The position numbers were made by a program, and so were the translations under genes. A stretch of DNA of 15,123 nt, taken from Candidatus Nomurabacteria bacterium. Lineage in GTDB: Bacteria; Patescibacteriota; Saccharimonadia; Saccharimonadales; Saccharimonadaceae. The stretch is taken from the NCBI GenBank assembly GCA_031262565.1, contig JAISHL010000004.1, positions 1 to 15,123 of the forward strand, given 5' to 3'. Below are positions 625-15,057 of the stretch, one piece after another. Numbering within the stretch: the first letter of the stretch is position 1; every line of letters begins with the position of its first letter. A model generated the notes under the pieces. It was not told the origin of the DNA and searched no databases. It saw nothing but the letters and a program-made list of their open reading frames with translations.

Positions 625-3600
625 ATGTCAAAATACGATGACAAAGCAATCGCTGACTTTGACGCCGTTCGCTTGGCGGTTGCGTCGGCTGACGACGTTT
701 TGGCGTGGTCTTATGGTGAGGTTTTGAAGCCAGAAACCATCAACTATCGCACCCAAAAACCAGAGCGCGACGGTTTGTTCTGTGAAAAAATCTTTGGACC
801 AGTCAAAGATATTAACCCGCACGACGCGAAGCTGAAAGGCGTTCGTTCTCGCGAGGCTGCTGTTGATAAAAATGGCGACTTGGTCACAAAGAGTAGTTCG
901 CGTCGCGAGCGCATGGGGCATATCAAATTGGCTACCCCTGTTGCGCATATTTGGTTTATGCGTGGCGTGCCAAGTGCAATGTCGCTGTTGCTTGATTTGA
1001 CGGTGAAAAATTTGGAACGTATCGCCTACTTCCAATCTTATGTGATTTTGTCGGTTGATAACGAAAGAATTGATCAGATGAAAGCAGATAACGAAGCAGA
1101 ATTTGAGGCTGGTCGTGCGGCGATTAAAATGCGCTACAATGAAGCGGCTGGCATGACGGCGGACGGCGCAGCTGAATCTGATAACACGGTTGATATTAAG
1201 GCTTTGTCGGCGGAAATGAATCACGAGCTTGAAGATTTGACCGAAAGTTATAATGAGAAAAAGCGAATTTTGGAGAGCTTGAATAAGTCGGCGTTGATTA
1301 GCGAAAATGCTTACCGTAACTTGCCAGAAGAATATGAAGAATTGGTTGAAGTTGGTATGGGCGGCGACGCTATTCATCGCTTGCTATCAGAGATAGATTT
1401 GCCAAAATTGATCGCTGAACTTGCCGAAGAAGCTGAGGGTAAAAAAGGTCAATCCAAAAAGCGCATTCAGAAGCGTCTCAAAATGCTTGAAGGTATGAAC
1501 GCGGCTGGTGTAAAACCAGAATCAATGTGCATGACGGTGTTACCTGTTATTCCTCCTGATTTGCGCCCAATGGTTCAATTGACTGGTGGTCGTTTTGCAA
1601 CATCAGATTTGAACGATTTGTATCGTCGAGTTATTAACCGCAATAATCGCTTGAAGAAATTGGCAGAATTGAACGCGCCAGAAGTGATTACGCGAAACGA
1701 AATGCGTATGTTGCAAGAGGCGGTTGACGCTTTGATCGACAACTCCGCAACTCGTGGCACGCGCGCTGCTCAGTCTACGGGCAACCGACGACGCTTGAAG
1801 TCATTGTCGGATCTCTTGAAAGGCAAACAAGGTCGTTTCCGTCAGAATCTTCTCGGTAAACGTGTTGACTACTCTGGTCGCTCGGTTATCGTATCTGGTC
1901 CAGATCTAAAACTTAATGAATGTGGTTTGCCAAAAACAATGGCAATGGAGCTATTTAAGCCTTTTGTGCTGGCGAAACTTTTGGAGTGGGAACAGGCGCA
2001 TAATATTCGCACTGCAACTCGCTTGATTGAGGCTGGCGACCCAATAATTTGGGACGCGCTCGATGAAGTAATTCAGGGTAAATATGTGCTTTTGAACCGC
2101 GCTCCTACTTTGCACCGTTTGTCAATTCAGGCGTTTCAGCCAAGATTGATTGAGGGTCAGGCGATTCAGTTGCCGCCGCTAGTGACCTCTGGATTCAATG
2201 CGGACTTTGACGGCGACCAAATGGCTGTTCACTTGCCACTTTCGGATGAGGCGCAGGCTGAGGCTCGCGACTTGATGTCGGCAGCAAATAACCTTTTGAA
2301 GCCAGCTGATGGCTCGCCAGTTCTTTCAATCTATCAGGATATCGTGCTTGGTTGTTACTATTTGACTTACGACAAGCCGTCCGCACAGTTGAAAGAGGGT
2401 GAAAAAGCGAAAGCTTTTGTTGATGTTGCGGAGGCGACTTTGGCAAAAGATGCTGGCGAAATTGAATATCAGACTCCAATTTTGATCAAGTTCCGTGGCG
2501 AAATGCGCGAAACAACTTTGGGTCGTATATTATTCAACGAAGTTTTGCCAGAAGACTTCCCATTTGTTAACGAAGTTTTGAATAAAAAAGCGGTTAGCCG
2601 CGTTTTGGCTCGAATCTTCAATAATTATGGCGCAGAAATCACCGCTCGCACATCTGATGCGATTAAGGATTTGGCGCTTGAACATGCCACTCAATCGGCT
2701 TTGTCGGTGGGCATGGAAGATTATAAGGGCTTGAAGAACTGGGATGAGATTTTGAGCGAAGGTGATGCAAAAGTTTCCGCAATCGCTAAGGATTTTGACG
2801 AAGGTTTGATCACCGAAGATGAGCGCTATAATCTTGTTATGAAGACTTGGCGCGACATTGACAAACGCATTACGGACGAAGTTAAGGAAAGCTTGGTTGG
2901 CGTTGACTCGTCGTCTGCAATTCTTGCTAACTCTGGCGCGCGCGGTTCGGTTGACAACATTAAACAAGCCGCAGCGATGATCGGTATTCAGGTGGACGCA
3001 CTTGGTCGCGCAATCGAGTTGCCAGTTCGCCACAGCTATAAGTTTGGTATGACGCCACTTGAAGCCTTCGTAGTGACGCGTGGTTCGCGTTTCGCTGAGG
3101 TCTCCAAGGCGCTTAAAACTGCCGACTCTGGTTATTTGACTCGTCGTTTGGTTGACGTGGCGCAAGATGTGTTCACGATCGCCGATGACGCCGCCGAAAC
3201 AGAAGATCCAGGCTTTACAGTTTATCGTCGCGAATCAGAAGAGACAATGATTTTGTTCTCTGACCGTATTGCTGGTCGCTATGCGGCGGCTGATGTGGCA
3301 AATTACGTCAAGAAGGGTGATCTGATTACATTAGCTATTGCCGATCAGATTCAGAATGATGAAGTAATTACAGAAGTAAAAATTCTCTCTGCCCTTTCAA
3401 CGCCTGAGCTTAACGGTATTCCGCAGAAGTCTTACGGTATTGATATGTCCACTGGATTCTTGGTTAGCGCGGCTGAACCTGTCGGTGTTATCGCGGCGCA
3501 GTCCGTTGGTGAACCAGGCACGCAGTTGACGCTTGACACGAAACACCAAGTCGCAGGCGGAACTGGCACAAGTCAAGGTTTGGCTCGTGTTGATGAGCTT

Positions 3601-4353
3601 TTGGAAGTTCGCACGCCAAAGGGTGAGGCTATCTTGTCGGAAACCGCTGGTATGGTTACGATTGAAGAGAAAGATGAAAAATATGTCATCAGTATCGTTC
3701 CGACCGAAAGCGACAAGCAAGCTAATGAATCTGTATCTAATAAGCGTTATGAAATTCCATCATACCGTCAGTTGACTATCGAAAACGGCGATCATGTGGT
3801 TATTGGCGATCGCTTGACGACTGGTTCTATCAACTTGCAACAGTCATTGCATTTGCGTGGCGTATCAGAGACAGAACGCTATATTATCAACGAAATCTTG
3901 CGCATTTATGCGGCTCAGGGTCAGGCAATTTCGCCAAAACACCTTGAAATCGTTGTGCGTCAGATGTTCAGTCGCGTTCAGATTGATGAGTCTGGCGATA
4001 GCTCGTTTATCGCTGGCGACATCGTATCGCGCGCTTTGGCGGTTCATACCAATAAGCAACTTGAAGCCGAAGGTAAAGAGCCTGCTCAATTTACGCAACT
4101 CTTGCTCGGTATCACGAAAGTTTCGATTTATAGCGACTCGTTCTTGTCGGCTGCCTCATTCCAAGATACAACTCGTGTCTTGATTAGCGCTGCAACATCT
4201 GGTCGTGTCGACCACTTGTATGGTTTGAAAGAGAACGTTATCTTGGGCCGCAAGATTCCTGTTGGAACTGGCGCAATGTCAGAGGAAGAATTTGCGGAAG
4301 AGCAATTTGGTGATCCGCTCGACACCGAGAATCAGATGGATTTAGCTGAATAA
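625..4353 (+). CDS. rpoC: RNA polymerase beta' subunit
   Basis: This is the catalytic subunit of RNA polymerase, 1242 residues, with a start chosen by an AGGAGG site 6 bases upstream. The catalytic [12 protein letters not shown] motif is intact at about 525-536 (Mg-binding Asp527, 529, 531), as are the [20 protein letters not shown] block (403-422), the [21 protein letters not shown] region (~491) and the bridge helix ([20 protein letters not shown]). Two things are odd. The N-terminal zinc-binding region (63-92) has the expected length but no cysteine, and the second zinc site before [16 protein letters not shown] is also cysteine-free (GIPQKSYG, 931-938). The trigger helix reads LTLDTKHQ, keeping His974 but with Asp971 and Lys973 where R and F are usual. 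The whole protein has only about four Cys. The frame is open throughout and the core is conserved, so this is a functional divergent enzyme rather than a decayed copy. Confidence 0.98.
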
Positions 4354-4754: not shown

Positions 4755-4781
4755 TTGTCATTCTGAACTTGTTTCAGAATC
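4755..4781 (+). repeat. Solo half-unit of the palindromic repeat found in hisS
   Basis: This 27-base unit folds as ATTCTGAA (4760-4767), loop CTTGT, TTCAGAAT (4773-4780). It is identical over all 27 bases to the reverse complement of the right arm (7729-7755) of the element inside hisS. It lies 15 bases after the stop of the small Cys gene, so it may also add structure to that transcript's 3' end. Confidence 0.85.
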
Positions 4782-6215: not shown

Positions 6216-7034
6216 ATGTCTAAGAATAAATATTCTGCAATATATCGTTCTATTGGTGTCGCGCCTCCTCAGAATCTATGCTGGCGTGTTTGCGACGGTT
6301 ATGCTCCTATGTTTATTGACAACGAGCTAGGCTATGTATCATATAGAATGAATCCAATTTGTCGACGCTCCTGTAAGTGTCCTCAGTCTAGCGACGAGCG
6401 CTCAATTCCAGGATCGTTCACGGCATTGATGATGGCTGCCAACCAAGAAAAAACACCAGATACTTTTCTCTTTACAATGAACTCGGCTATTGCGGTAGCT
6501 GACGCAGTGCGCGGCTACTATGAAACCTTGCGCCAGCCTACTCCGAACCTATGTCCAATTCGTGGTGCGGGTAATTTTCGCAAGTATAAAGATGTCTTAT
6601 CGAGCGAAGAGTCGATTGACAAAAATATTCGTGACAAAAATGTAGTTGTCGTTGATCAATATGTTGCTTCGTGCGGAACGCTATATAATGCGCGAAATTT
6701 AGCATTTGATTATGGGGCTAAAGCTGTATTGTCAAACTGTGAGACGCGTTGGTATCATCAAGGAAGTTATAAGGGTTGGGAGGATAAGGCGGCAGATGAG
6801 GAAACTTATGATGCCGACAAAAATCCAGAACTGATTCAAATGACCAGTATATACAAAGATTTTATGTATGGCATGGGCGTATTAGCTGCGAAATTTTTAT
6901 CAGATCCAGAAAATCGCGCATGGTTGAAGCCATATATAGAAAATTTGCCATCTTGGAACTTGTGTTGGACTGAGCGCTATTCAACGGATGAATACAGTGA
7001 TCAAGATGAATTACTTGGTCTTCTGAGAGATTAA
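6216..7034 (+). CDS. Unknown protein with a degenerate phosphoribosyltransferase-like core
   Basis: I do not recognise this 272-residue protein as a named family. Residues 142-171 (NVVVVDQYVASCGTLYNAR, then a helix and GAKAV) match the shape of the phosphoribosyltransferase PRPP loop, a hydrophobic strand then D-D-x4-TGxT then a helix and GA. The second Asp is Gln148 and the TG is replaced by SCG. An upstream strand-loop-helix (DTFLFTMNSAIAVADAVRGYY, 82-102) could be the equivalent of the pyrophosphate-loop region. An N-terminal stretch has clustered Cys (22, 26, 49, 53, 55), which could bind metal or form disulfides. No signal peptide is visible. The start at 6216 coincides with the predicted +1 of a strong promoter, and no Shine-Dalgarno is present, so translation is probably leaderless. 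The 3' end overlaps hisS, on the opposite strand, by 24 bases with no terminator between. Confidence 0.8.
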   Translation: MSKNKYSAIYRSIGVAPPQNLCWRVCDGYAPMFIDNELGYVSYRMNPICRRSCKCPQSSDERSIPGSFTALMMAANQEKTPDTFLFTMNSAIAVADAVRGYYETLRQPTPNLCPIRGAGNFRKYKDVLSSEESIDKNIRDKNVVVVDQYVASCGTLYNARNLAFDYGAKAVLSNCETRWYHQGSYKGWEDKAADEETYDADKNPELIQMTSIYKDFMYGMGVLAAKFLSDPENRAWLKPYIENLPSWNLCWTERYSTDEYSDQDELLGLLRD

Positions 7035-8417
7035 GATTGATAGTGGTTGTTGCTCGCCAGTTGTTAGATTCTTCAATATAATCTCGCCCGATTCAATCTC
7101 TGTTTCGCCAATGAATGCCACAAATTGAATATTGGCTTTGGCGGCAGCTTTGATCTTTTTATCAGTTTTGCGATCTGTAAAATCAATCGCCACATTAAAC
7201 TTCTGCTCGCGCAAGTTATTTGCCACATCAGTTACATCAATATCGCCCATCGGGATTATCATCACGTCGGTCGCAGGTTTTAGTTCTGGAATTAAATCGT
7301 GTCCACGCAAAAACTCGATTGTCGTCGTTTCGCCAATTCCCGCTCCCACCACAGGCAGTGGTTCAACACCGAACAAGCTAATCAGCCCATCATAGCGACC
7401 ACCACCGAACATTGCGCGTCGGTTGTCGGGATTTTGATCAAATACTTCAAAGACTGTTCCCGTGTAATAATCAAATCCGCGCATTAACGTCGGATCAAAT
7501 ACGGCAGAAGAAATGCCAGATTTTTCCAACTTCTCAAATAGTTCTTTCAGCTCGTCAATCGGCGCATTTTCGGGCATGTTTTTGATAAATTCGTCCAAAC
7601 TTTTCGCCTCAATGATTTTATTTATTTTCTTAATAATATTTTTGCTATCCTTAATGTCATTTTTATCATATTGAATACCAATATTGTCATCCTGAACTCG
7701 TTTCAGGATCTCTGCACTCTCTTTACTGGATTCTGAAACAAGTTCAGAATGACAAGCAGAATCGAGTTGAGATTGACTATTTGCAACAATCTCCGCAACC
7801 TCCGTTTCAAATTCTTCCACGGAGATTTTTTCGCGTCGATCAAACAATTTAATCATCGCGCCAGCCTGATTCTCATCAAGCTCCAAATATTTTCGCATGA
7901 CAAAATCCGTCAAACGGCGGTCGTTTACGCGAATTTTAAACATCGCCTCGTCAGCTCCGAGTTTGCGCATAATCTTGTCGCTCATCGTGATGATTTCCGC
8001 ATCTGCCGCCACGCCGTCCACGCCAAACAAATCCATATTAAACTGCCAAAATTCGCGCTCGCGTCCCTTTTGCGGGCGCTCATATCGCATAAAATTGGAA
8101 ATTGAAAACAGGCGTGCGGGCATCGGCATTTCTTGACGACGTGCGGCAACCATGCGCGAGATTGACGGTGTCATCTCTGGTCGTATTGCAACCGTGCGAT
8201 CACCGCGATCTGTAAATGTATAAGTTTGATCGTTAACGATCTCTTGTCCAGATTTTGCCGCATAAATTTCCAGCGATTCAAGCAGTGGTGCGTCGTATTC
8301 TTCGTAGCCAAAACTCTCCGCGACCGTCCGCCACGTATTAAAAATGTAATTTCGCAGGCGCATATCCTCTGGATAAATGTCGCGCGTGCCTTTATAACTT
8401 TGTAAACTTAAACTCAT
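7011..8417 (-). CDS. hisS: Histidyl-tRNA synthetase carrying an in-frame repeat insertion
   Basis: This class II synthetase attaches histidine to tRNA-His in the cytoplasm. Visible motifs are the N-terminal YKGTRDIYPEDM, motif 2 (RPEMTPSISRMVA at 79-91; MRYERPQKGREREFWQFN at 110-127), the histidine-specific GFDYYTGTVFE (314-324), motif 3 (GGGRYDGL, 338-345) and a C-terminal anticodon-binding domain (~383-468). At 468 residues it is somewhat longer than usual; most of the excess is residues 221-245, encoded by a palindromic element (7684-7755), plus a following Lys/Asp/Asn-rich stretch (246-268). These lie in the linker/insertion between motif 2 and the GFDYYTG block, a position likely to tolerate extra residues. 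The start has AAGGAG seven bases upstream and overlaps the stop of the preceding gene (ATGA), so translation is probably coupled. All catalytic motifs are intact, so the enzyme is likely active. Confidence 0.97.
   Translation of the reverse strand: MSLSLQSYKGTRDIYPEDMRLRNYIFNTWRTVAESFGYEEYDAPLLESLEIYAAKSGQEIVNDQTYTFTDRGDRTVAIRPEMTPSISRMVAARRQEMPMPARLFSISNFMRYERPQKGREREFWQFNMDLFGVDGVAADAEIITMSDKIMRKLGADEAMFKIRVNDRRLTDFVMRKYLELDENQAGAMIKLFDRREKISVEEFETEVAEIVANSQSQLDSACHSELVSESSKESAEILKRVQDDNIGIQYDKNDIKDSKNIIKKINKIIEAKSLDEFIKNMPENAPIDELKELFEKLEKSGISSAVFDPTLMRGFDYYTGTVFEVFDQNPDNRRAMFGGGRYDGLISLFGVEPLPVVGAGIGETTTIEFLRGHDLIPELKPATDVMIIPMGDIDVTDVANNLREQKFNVAIDFTDRKTDKKIKAAAKANIQFVAFIGETEIESGEIILKNLTTGEQQPLSILISQKTK
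7684..7755. repeat. 72-bp double-hairpin palindromic element inside hisS
   Basis: Two 27-base arms (7684-7710 and 7729-7755) form an inverted repeat with 3 mismatches around an 18-base centre. Each arm is also its own hairpin: ATCCTGAA/TTCAGGAT on the left and ATTCTGAA/TTCAGAAT on the right, each with a 5-base loop. Two of the three mismatches are a compensating pair that preserves the left arm's own hairpin. The element is 24 codons long and open in the hisS frame, encoding a peptide with HSELVSES near its start and KRVQDD near its end. It resembles in kind the palindromic elements of Rickettsia that insert in frame in genes; descent from them is not implied. Confidence 0.9.
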
Positions 8418-9975: not shown

Positions 9976-11568
9976 TTACATTCGCTTAGCTGTTTTCTTT
10001 CGCACTAATACTACCGCGCCAATTATCGCACCCAAAGCTATTATCGCCGAAATCAAGATCTTTGATTCTACTGCCATGGATCCGAATAATCCTGTCGCCG
10101 GTGCGTCTAGTATTGGATCGCTAGCTAAGTTTAGCTTGGTTGTCGAGATCACGATACCCGAAAACTTCACATCTTTAAGTTCGTAATTTCCCTCCGCGTC
10201 GGCGATAAATTCTTTGAGGAGAGTTACATAGCCCTCGTCATCGTAATGATATGCGTAGTATTTTTTGCCAGCTTCGAGGTTTGCAAGATTAACAGTTCCA
10301 GTTCCATGTCCGTTTGCGGTGATTAAGATTGCACTATCCTCAATATCTGCAAACCATACTGGAACTAAGCTGCGCAAATTTTCCGACAAGACCGTTGATT
10401 TTACTAATAGTAATTCGCCGCCTTCCGTTTTTACATCTGAATCGATTGGCGTTGCTTTGATAAATTTACTTACGTCGCTTGAAAATGTCCCGCCAGTAAT
10501 AAATCCTTCGGAGAATTGTTCAAGAAAATCCTCGGTGGTTACTATTGCGTCTAATCCCTTTGCGCTAGTGAAAGTTCCGCCACTGATTAAAACATTTGTC
10601 ATTGCCGTTCCCTCGCAGCCGTATCCGAAAATCGCATAGCCGTTATCGCTAGTAAATGTTCCACCGCTAATTGTTAGGTCGATATTTCCTGTATAGGCTG
10701 GCATATCTGATTCAACTTGAATCGCCGCACCTGTCGCCTCAATTCCAGTTAGGCTACAAACGCTACCTGCTTTCGGTCCTGTTGCTTTAAATGTTCCACC
10801 GTTGATTGTCCATTTTCCAGCTTTCATGCCAATAGCCGACTCAACGCCAGTAATAATCGCACCCGAGTCGATTGTCCAATCCGCATAACCCTCTGCAAAA
10901 ATTGGCACGCCAGTCGCGCTAATATTTGCCGTTTCGCCGATCGCAATTGTTATTGGATTTTCTATATTGTGAATTGTTCCGTTCGTGTAAACTCCCGCGC
11001 CCGTATTTCCCTCTTGGTCATTTAATCCAATGATCGTTCCATTTATAGTGATATTTACGCCATAAGCTACGCCACAATGATCGCCACTACAACTAGGATC
11101 GGTTTTTGATGAAACTTTAACACCAGCCCAACCTTGAAGTGTTACGCCATCATCGACTACTAATGACGAGTAATTTTGAGCTTCTGAACTATCAGAGCCT
11201 TTGAGTTGTATCACGCTGTCGTCTGGCGCGGTTTCGACCAAACTGCCTCTGCCAGTCAATACTAAATGTCCACCATCTATACTAAAGAATTTATCGGGCT
11301 TTGTGAGCGTATATCCATTCAAATCAATTGTCAGACTATATTCGCTCATTATAGTGATATAATCACTGCCAGTAAGAGCAATATCATTACTGAGCGTAAT
11401 TGTGTCGTCATCTGGACCAGCGTCAGCCTCTGCGATCGCATTCATAAAATCGTCAGCATTACCGACGGTTGCATCAATTGCATTCGCTGGGTCCGCCTTG
11501 AATCCGACAATCAAAGCCACACCCAAAGCTAACGTTAACCCTAAAATTTTTTTAATTTTCATCCCCAT
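9976..11568 (-). CDS. Secreted beta-helix-like surface protein with C-terminal anchor
   Basis: This 530-residue protein is predicted to be exported and held at the cell surface. It has an N-terminal signal peptide (MKIKKILG, a hydrophobic core, cleavage likely after ANA at 28-30). A long repetitive body contains DLNGYTLT (82-89) and four GGTF turns (257, 302, 330, 359; e.g. ISGGTFTS), typical of right-handed parallel beta-helix proteins. The C-terminus has APATGLFG (489-496), a hydrophobic segment (~504-522) and a basic tail (RKKTAKRM), an order like sortase sorting signals. No catalytic motif is evident, so adhesion or a structural envelope role is more likely than enzymatic activity, but that is inference. 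The second Met (11562) may be the true start because it is better spaced (9 bases) from AAGGGG. Its own promoter lies upstream. Confidence 0.85.
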   Translation of the reverse strand: MGMKIKKILGLTLALGVALIVGFKADPANAIDATVGNADDFMNAIAEADAGPDDDTITLSNDIALTGSDYITIMSEYSLTIDLNGYTLTKPDKFFSIDGGHLVLTGRGSLVETAPDDSVIQLKGSDSSEAQNYSSLVVDDGVTLQGWAGVKVSSKTDPSCSGDHCGVAYGVNITINGTIIGLNDQEGNTGAGVYTNGTIHNIENPITIAIGETANISATGVPIFAEGYADWTIDSGAIITGVESAIGMKAGKWTINGGTFKATGPKAGSVCSLTGIEATGAAIQVESDMPAYTGNIDLTISGGTFTSDNGYAIFGYGCEGTAMTNVLISGGTFTSAKGLDAIVTTEDFLEQFSEGFITGGTFSSDVSKFIKATPIDSDVKTEGGELLLVKSTVLSENLRSLVPVWFADIEDSAILITANGHGTGTVNLANLEAGKKYYAYHYDDEGYVTLLKEFIADAEGNYELKDVKFSGIVISTTKLNLASDPILDAPATGLFGSMAVESKILISAIIALGAIIGAVVLVRKKTAKRM

Positions 11569-14136: not shown

Positions 14137-15057
14137 CTATTTTTCTGAAGCGCGCTGGCGAGCGATCATCCAAGCGATTACGCTTGCGAAACCAATTGCC
14201 GAGATTGCGCCAAGAATTGTAACATCTACTACGCTCTCAGCTTTCACTGTGTCGCCACCAAGACCTGTTGAAGGTGCTGCGATTGTAGTTTCTTCGTCGT
14301 CGGTGATTGCTGGGGTTAGAGGTAAAACGACATTGTTATTGTTGCCAGTATTCAAAGTGCTTTCATCTACCCAAGTTCCGTTATCTAATACATAAGTAGT
14401 AGTACCAACAATGATTTCGTCAGCAACGATTTTGCCCTTTAATGCATCAAAGTCAGTAGTATTGTTCATTGTGACAGTTTTTGCATTAAGCGAGAAGTTA
14501 TCCAAGTAAGCGATCGCGCCGCCAGGAAGATTTGCGCTGATATTTACATTGCTAAGATCTACGTTTTCAGCTTCTACTGCAATCTTTGTGGTATTTTGAA
14601 TACCTAATTTTGTCTGATTTGCGATTGCTGCGGTAGCGATTTTACCGATATTGAGCAAATCGTCTTCCGATAAGTCGTCGGCAAAATTGATATTTACGTC
14701 AGTGATTGCACCTGTAATAGCGCTTGGATCAAATCCGCCCACTAAATCAATCGCTGCTTGGATTTCTGCGATTTTAGCGTCTATACCCCACAACGCCCAT
14801 TCTGCGTCCGCAATGTTGAATGTAATTGTATCGACTGGATCGCAAGTCTCCCCATTTACAATAGCGGCAGACATTGCCGTTGGATCAGCAATGCTATTCC
14901 AAGTGGTATTATTTGCTATGTCAATAATCACCTGATTACCGTCGCATTTTACTATGCCTGGAATTAAATCTGTTGCCGCAAATGTTGATGCAACTGGGGC
15001 AAAACTCATCCCAAGTGTCGCAACTATACCTGCGCTAACTAATAAACTTTTCTTCAT
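14137..15057 (-). CDS. Secreted, membrane-anchored surface protein of unknown function
   Basis: This 306-residue protein begins with a clear signal peptide (MKKSLLVSAGIVATLGMSF, cleavage likely after STFA, ~27). The mature part has two Cys (Cys38 and Cys73) and an asparagine-rich, probably extended or beta-rich region (e.g. DLSNVNISANLPGG; TGNNNNVV) with no domain I recognise. A Thr/Glu/Asp-rich stalk leads to APSTGLGG (261-268), a hydrophobic helix (~277-299) and a basic tail (RQRASEK), closely parallel to the C-terminus of the surface protein at 9976-11568. An AAAGGA ribosome site lies 9 bases before the ATG. Upstream is a candidate promoter overlapped by a palindrome and an ACT trinucleotide repeat, which could switch or tune expression. 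A strong terminator follows, so it is a single-gene unit. Confidence 0.82.
   Translation of the reverse strand: MKKSLLVSAGIVATLGMSFAPVASTFAATDLIPGIVKCDGNQVIIDIANNTTWNSIADPTAMSAAIVNGETCDPVDTITFNIADAEWALWGIDAKIAEIQAAIDLVGGFDPSAITGAITDVNINFADDLSEDDLLNIGKIATAAIANQTKLGIQNTTKIAVEAENVDLSNVNISANLPGGAIAYLDNFSLNAKTVTMNNTTDFDALKGKIVADEIIVGTTTYVLDNGTWVDESTLNTGNNNNVVLPLTPAITDDEETTIAAPSTGLGGDTVKAESVVDVTILGAISAIGFASVIAWMIARQRASEK

Follow-up and report, generated by a model that had tools for sequence, protein, structure and literature searches.

The window, the whole 15,123-nucleotide stretch of DNA analysed here, begins within the RNA polymerase genes, of which the following features were located.

2-613: end of rpoB, upstream of rpoC
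625..4353, + strand: rpoC, RNA polymerase beta' subunit, 1242 codons (amino acids) in one open frame, the lone copy found
2197..2217, + strand: catalytic NADFDGD motif, intact, RpoC residues 525-531

The RpoC of the window scored 1335.6 bits with the NCBIfam model TIGR02386 (cut-off 963.5), over model positions 2 to 1145 of 1147, and contains five Pfam domains. Residues 525 to 536, which begin with the catalytic motif, read NADFDGDQMAVH, and all 110 of 110 rows carry either NADFDGDQMAVH or NADYDGDQMAVH. Judged from these sequence features, this protein is a normal beta' subunit apart from its zinc sites. Residues 145 to 218 (positions 1057-1278) form an insertion for which two long helices are predicted. 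This insertion is missing from two aligned clostridial beta' chains, a mycobacterial beta' aligns across it in one stretch, and it may match the actinobacterial clamp insertion.

Elsewhere in the window, a palindromic repeat at 7685-7754 lies in frame inside hisS (7011-8417, - strand), the histidyl-tRNA synthetase gene, with a hairpin of -32.5 kcal/mol (z -6.86). A genome-wide count of its half-element pattern, allowing at most two mismatches, gave 72 occurrences versus 0 for the reversed control, and the pattern recurs once in the window, at 4756-4780; a repeat search with a 9-base seed did not report the hisS palindromic repeat. Two proteins encoded on the - strand at 9976-11568 and 14137-15057 have no Pfam matches and contain, close to the C terminus, APATG or APSTG. 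Downstream of this motif both have a hydrophobic stretch with basic residues after it, an arrangement that by eye resembles sortase-type anchors.

Structural zinc in beta' generally counts as a fixed part of the bacterial enzyme. We take its ligands in E. coli to be Cys70, Cys72, Cys85 and Cys88 for the site that we call Zn1 (site 1) and Cys814, Cys888, Cys895 and Cys898 for Zn2 (site 2). Alignment to RpoC of E. coli K-12 MG1655 (NC_000913.3, b3988) placed the first of these sites within residues 58 to 100 of the window protein, which read GPVKDINPHDAKLKGVRSREAAVDKNGDLVTKSSSRRERMGHI.

811..900, + strand: former zinc site 1, zinc-less replacement segment, RpoC residues 63-92, ungapped against E. 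coli beta' 68-97 (offset 5)
817..819, + strand: Pro65 at the position of E. coli Cys70, Pro in 123/126 of the order
823..825, + strand: Asp67 at the position of Cys72, Asp in 126/126 of the order
862..864, + strand: Val80 at the position of Cys85, Val in 115/126 of the order
871..873, + strand: Asn83 at the position of Cys88, variable in the order (N/E/K/R/D)

The alignment bears out the original prediction that all four N-terminal zinc cysteines are gone without a gap relative to E. coli, and P, D, V and N occupy the places of the CxC...CxxC pattern exactly as it had listed them (P65, D67, V80 and N83). The same alignment revealed a second loss, which that prediction did not contain. None of the eight cysteines that serve as zinc ligands in E. 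coli is present in the window protein, and the site-2 positions are filled as follows.

3190..3192, + strand: Ala856 at the position of Cys814, by alignment to E. coli RpoC
3400..3402, + strand: Thr926 at the position of Cys888, by the same alignment
3421..3423, + strand: Pro933 at the position of Cys895, by the same alignment
3430..3432, + strand: Ser936 at the position of Cys898, by the same alignment

The distribution of both losses was read from three sets of sequences. The RpoC search covered 195 genomes of the class, 191 of them with matches, and was repeated on 32 of those 195 that lie outside the order, where 28 gave matches; a phylum-level search covered 145 genomes, 140 with matches. 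A further 80 RpoC loci were taken from named contigs and assigned by similarity and tree, without a taxonomy code, to the order of the window, which we take to be Saccharimonadales. The order set comprises 126 non-redundant RpoC, namely, those of 52 genomes, the 80 named loci and the window, minus 7 identical sequences; 5 rows were removed as one genome seen twice, loci L139, L140, L155 and L158 were excluded, and the order genomes with handles whose residues were read number 53, the window's own included. The sister-order set consists of 28 RpoC, which is every matched genome of the repeat search. The set of other Patescibacteria draws on the 130 matched genomes outside the class, from which 80 were read, for the most part a single one per family; four added later bring the number to 84. 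Beyond Patescibacteria the sample consists of E. coli in full and two clostridial chains in the alignment only, so other losses may exist elsewhere.

At site 1, none of the four cysteines occurs in any of the 126 order sequences, and all four are present in 27/27 covered sister-order rows (of 28) and in 79/79 covered rows of other Patescibacteria (of 80), with four more read later likewise. The replacement is confined to a single clade among 232 covered rows. At least 120 listed proteins, out of 4455 matches, have no cysteine in the segment (120/120); these were picked by likeness to the segment itself, so they only show that the form is widespread. After removal of near-copies and fragments, 129 RpoC (26 from the order, 25 from sister orders and 78 others) went into a FastTree phylogeny in which the zinc columns were masked. 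In this tree the order forms one side of a branch with a local support of 100, and the states at site 1 require one change and those at site 2 require two. On the sequences read, the loss of site 1 is ancestral to the order, with one change at its base. The proposed alignment of RpoC across Saccharibacteria and other CPR lineages has in this way placed the cysteine loss throughout the order and outside its sisters, and the suggested lineage-specific remodelling of the polymerase stands: neither the sister orders nor the other Patescibacteria sampled show it.

At site 2, no ligand cysteine remains in 113 order rows, one remains in 9 and two remain in 3, with one row gapped (125/126 covered); such relics are expected of decay after loss. 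The site is complete in 26/26 covered sister rows and in 78/79 covered rows of other Patescibacteria. The surroundings of its CxxC have an entropy of 0.912 and a pN of 0.290 in the order, and an entropy of 0.978 in the sisters (0.916 for the protein). In both groups the variability of this stretch is close to the mean of the protein, so only the ligand positions speak for the loss. An explanation of the site-2 loss as drift of a variable stretch was rejected, given that the zinc-bearing sisters are equally variable there.

The single exception among other Patescibacteria, locus L222 (genome G202) of the distant family f39, has lost all four site-2 cysteines and has an intact site 1. Its site-2 loss is a separate event on the tree, where L222 carries a flag for being joined with a second long branch. 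Four further genomes of this family keep site 1 (4/4), and site 2 retains three of four cysteines in L311 and is full in the other three.

The trigger loop also varies. Its RTFH motif (E. coli 933-936) is DTKH in the window protein (residues 971-974, positions 3535-3546), and across the order (n = 126) RTFH occurs 42 times, DTKH 40, NTFH 18, KTFH 15 and other forms 11. Lysine at position 973 requires 11 changes on the 129-row tree, which indicates that it arose repeatedly. The histidine of the motif is an arginine in L312 and L314, two members of family f39.

The replacement segment at site 1 is strongly conserved. Its mean column entropy is 0.374 bits in the order versus 0.833 for the whole protein, and the same segment in the zinc-bearing sister orders has 0.439 bits versus 0.916; being below the protein mean on both sides, it appears as constrained as the zinc-bearing form. 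Among 26 order sequences, pN is 0.146 in the segment versus 0.230 for the protein, the latter from a one-in-three codon sample, with pS saturated at about 0.8. The low entropy and low pN indicate that the replacement is held by selection and is not decaying. Asp62, Asp67, Gly72, Arg74, Arg76, Ala79, Asp81, Gly84 and Thr88 are invariant in all 126 order sequences. The basic residues within the segment are nearly as fixed (Lys69 in 125/126, Lys71 in 123/126, Arg74 and Arg76 each in 126/126), and every one of the 126 has Lys or Arg at positions 69, 71, 74 and 76. The sisters have Lys in 27/27 at positions 69 and 71, Arg in 24/27 at position 74, and Lys or Arg in 27/27 at position 76. From these patterns, the simplest reading would be that the nucleic-acid face was preserved and the core alone exchanged.

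Two further explanations of these observations were weighed. The loss could be an artefact of misassembly, a pseudogene, or a state compensated by a second intact rpoC elsewhere. The genome is 70.85% complete in 89 contigs, and its missing part could hide such a copy; a second rpoC was looked for in this genome and not found, and the gene in the window has an open frame and shares its segment with 125 other non-redundant RpoC. Chance or assembly error is made very unlikely by the lack of the four cysteines in all 126 order sequences together with their near-identical replacement sequence. Misassembly and a second rpoC were rejected on these grounds, and an artefact of any kind is extremely unlikely. 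Of the findings that had been named as able to overturn the prediction, neither relatives with CxC...CxxC nor a second intact rpoC turned up in the search. Alternatively, the element could bind a metal through other ligands, such as His66, Asp67, Asp81 or others, and in the order His66 is present in 123/126 and Asp67 and Asp81 in 126/126. However, Asp81 is also Asp in 27/27 sisters with the four-cysteine site, position 83 varies, and 3/126 lack His66, so that no fourth fixed ligand is evident. Metal binding of this type is improbable.

The reading that we prefer is that a Saccharimonadales ancestor swapped structural zinc site 1 of beta' once, with site 2 also lost in the order. A zinc-free core around the order-fixed residues Asp67, Gly72, Arg74, Arg76, Ala79, Asp81, Gly84 and Thr88 would hold the element, which would still fold and still serve the RNA exit and clamp region and the movements of the clamp. 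The basic positions 69, 71, 74 and 76 would keep its nucleic-acid-facing surface. We consider it quite probable that the zinc knuckle gave way a single time, in the ancestor of the order, to a folded and working element without zinc, and that site 2 was lost as well. With both sites replaced in zinc-free form, the polymerase of this order of Saccharibacteria would carry no structural zinc, and it probably works without it.

An AlphaFold model of the window protein (1200 residues, 103 order sequences) reached a mean pLDDT of 71 and a pTM of 0.52, with pLDDT below 50 across most of residues 31 to 113, around site 1, and ten-residue blocks of 76 to 92 over residues 851 to 940, near site 2. The control, a zinc-bearing sister protein (1200 residues, 20 sequences), reached a mean pLDDT of 55 and is unusable as such. 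All of the best 50 of 689 Foldseek matches are RNA polymerase entries. The original prediction that the element must fold without zinc is likely correct, but at this pLDDT the model gives zinc-free folding of site 1 no support. The role that it gave to the element, gripping DNA, is incomplete. In a structure of the E. coli elongation complex, the beta' zinc-binding domain is positioned where the RNA exit channel opens, and it contacts RNA; its binding of the HK022 put RNA is mainly by polar contacts (PMC9378689).

Zinc sites in other proteins were compared in 30 genomes, 15 each from the order and from sister orders. Ribosomal protein L36 is free of cysteine in 15/15 order genomes, among them that of the window, and has three cysteines in the 14 matched sisters (BLAST). 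The four-cysteine finger of RecR is present in 12 matched sisters, and just its first cysteine remains in the 14 matched order genomes. S14 has no CxxC in 14/14 matched order genomes and also none in 7/14 sisters, for which reason its loss was rejected as order-specific. The incomplete genome of the window itself yielded neither RecR nor S14. All four CxxC of DnaJ persist in 15/15 order genomes; among the sisters, the DnaJ-like match scores below the family cut-off and lacks any CxxC in 7/13 matched genomes (G001, G006, G010, G014, G026, G029 and G032). Glycyl-tRNA synthetase (GlyRS) keeps its four cysteines in 11/15 order genomes, the window's among them, and has lost them in 3/14 sisters read; a hint from a single pair that this loss was order-wide did not survive the 30-genome test. 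The zinc uptake protein ZnuA is absent from 14/15 order and 14/15 sister genomes, and being equally rare on both sides, it does not discriminate between them.

The direction of CxxC loss was examined in one genome pair, order genome G058 and sister genome G002, through 335 reciprocal best hits. Among 54 CxxC motifs of the sister, 32 are kept in the order genome, 2 are half kept, 12 are lost and 8 fall in gaps. Conversely, of 36 motifs in the order genome, 32 are shared with the sister, 1 is half present, 0 are absent and 3 fall in gaps. The motifs of PriA, RadA, DnaJ and a 940-residue protein are all kept, and those wholly or half lost belong to GatB, MetRS, two PilB-like ATPases, a histidine kinase and one further protein. 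Cysteine makes up 0.704% of residues in the order genome versus 0.546% in the sister, which argues against general cysteine avoidance.

These results allow two accounts of what drove the loss. A low-zinc ancestor may have permanently stripped structural zinc from its most abundant machines, the ribosome and the polymerase, a lasting version of what bacteria with zinc-free ribosomal protein paralogues do when starved of the metal. This account agrees with the losses in L36 and RecR at sites present in the matched sisters, with S14 in every matched order genome, with the 12 motifs lost versus 0 absent in the pair, and with an order genome that is not cysteine-poor. Several observations count against it: the retained sites of DnaJ and, mostly, of GlyRS, whose site is also lost in sisters; the motifs of PriA, RadA, DnaJ and the 940-residue protein kept in the pair; the S14 state of half the sisters; the failure to find RecR and S14 in the incomplete genome of the window; the like rarity of ZnuA on both sides; and a directional trend that comes from one genome pair. 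The suggestion of an adaptation to low zinc is only partly supported, by the sites lost from L36 and RecR in every matched order genome, but the retention in DnaJ and GlyRS speaks against it, and we put this account forward tentatively, as falling well short of an even chance. In the other account, a zinc-free core arose stepwise by chance in a small streamlined genome, without selection on zinc, and was fixed by co-adaptation within the machine. Zinc sites do turn over in the class, S14 and the DnaJ-like protein differing among sisters and GlyRS within both the order and the sisters, and outside it site 2 was lost independently in L222 and reduced to three cysteines in L311. However, the site-1 replacement occurs in just a single clade of the 232 covered rows, and L36 and RecR follow a matching order-versus-sister pattern; together these make chance alone less likely, and this account is a real possibility that comes a little short of an even chance. 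Partial zinc saving in abundant machines and chance replacement are about equally likely. It is likely that the RNA polymerase of the order is zinc-free, with a knuckle replaced once by a protein-only core and a zinc loss linked to those of L36 and RecR.

If this is correct, an order without beta' zinc provides a natural experiment on the role of the knuckle in pausing, termination and RNA binding, and on the way in which an essential enzyme can have a zinc site replaced. The order loci include oral Saccharibacteria (Nanosynbacter, L043, and TM7 HOT 348, L052). Some relatives of oral Saccharibacteria can be grown with a host, which makes the prediction testable. Among the literature matches listed, no title or opening of an abstract reports the loss of an RpoC zinc site in Saccharibacteria or Patescibacteria; most subscription journals lie outside that coverage, and the evidence of novelty is correspondingly weak. 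Ribosomal proteins in zinc-free versions are already known, and an order-wide zinc-free RNA polymerase would be a new case of this type if metal analysis confirms it.

Compared with known systems, window RpoC shares with the canonical bacterial beta' its gene, domain order, NADFDGD motif and the length of the site-1 segment, and differs from a beta' with Zn1 and Zn2 in that all eight ligands are absent. The RpoC of family f39 (G202, L222) has lost site 2 too, with a similar GIPQxxYG remnant, but L222 keeps all four site-1 cysteines and its loss is a separate event on the tree. Another parallel lies in the C- (zinc-independent) forms of ribosomal proteins, for example L36 and L31 paralogues, which are reported to be made under zinc limitation (PMC5912738, PMC13343924). 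The likeness is that cysteine ligands are replaced in a protein that stays conserved, and the L36 of the window's genome is itself without cysteine. In the RpoC of the order, likewise, the ligands were lost and the site-1 segment stayed under purifying selection (entropy 0.374 versus 0.833; pN 0.146 versus 0.230). Unlike the C- ribosomal proteins described there, the protein concerned here is the polymerase, the search for a zinc-bearing paralogue gave none, and the whole order carries the change permanently.
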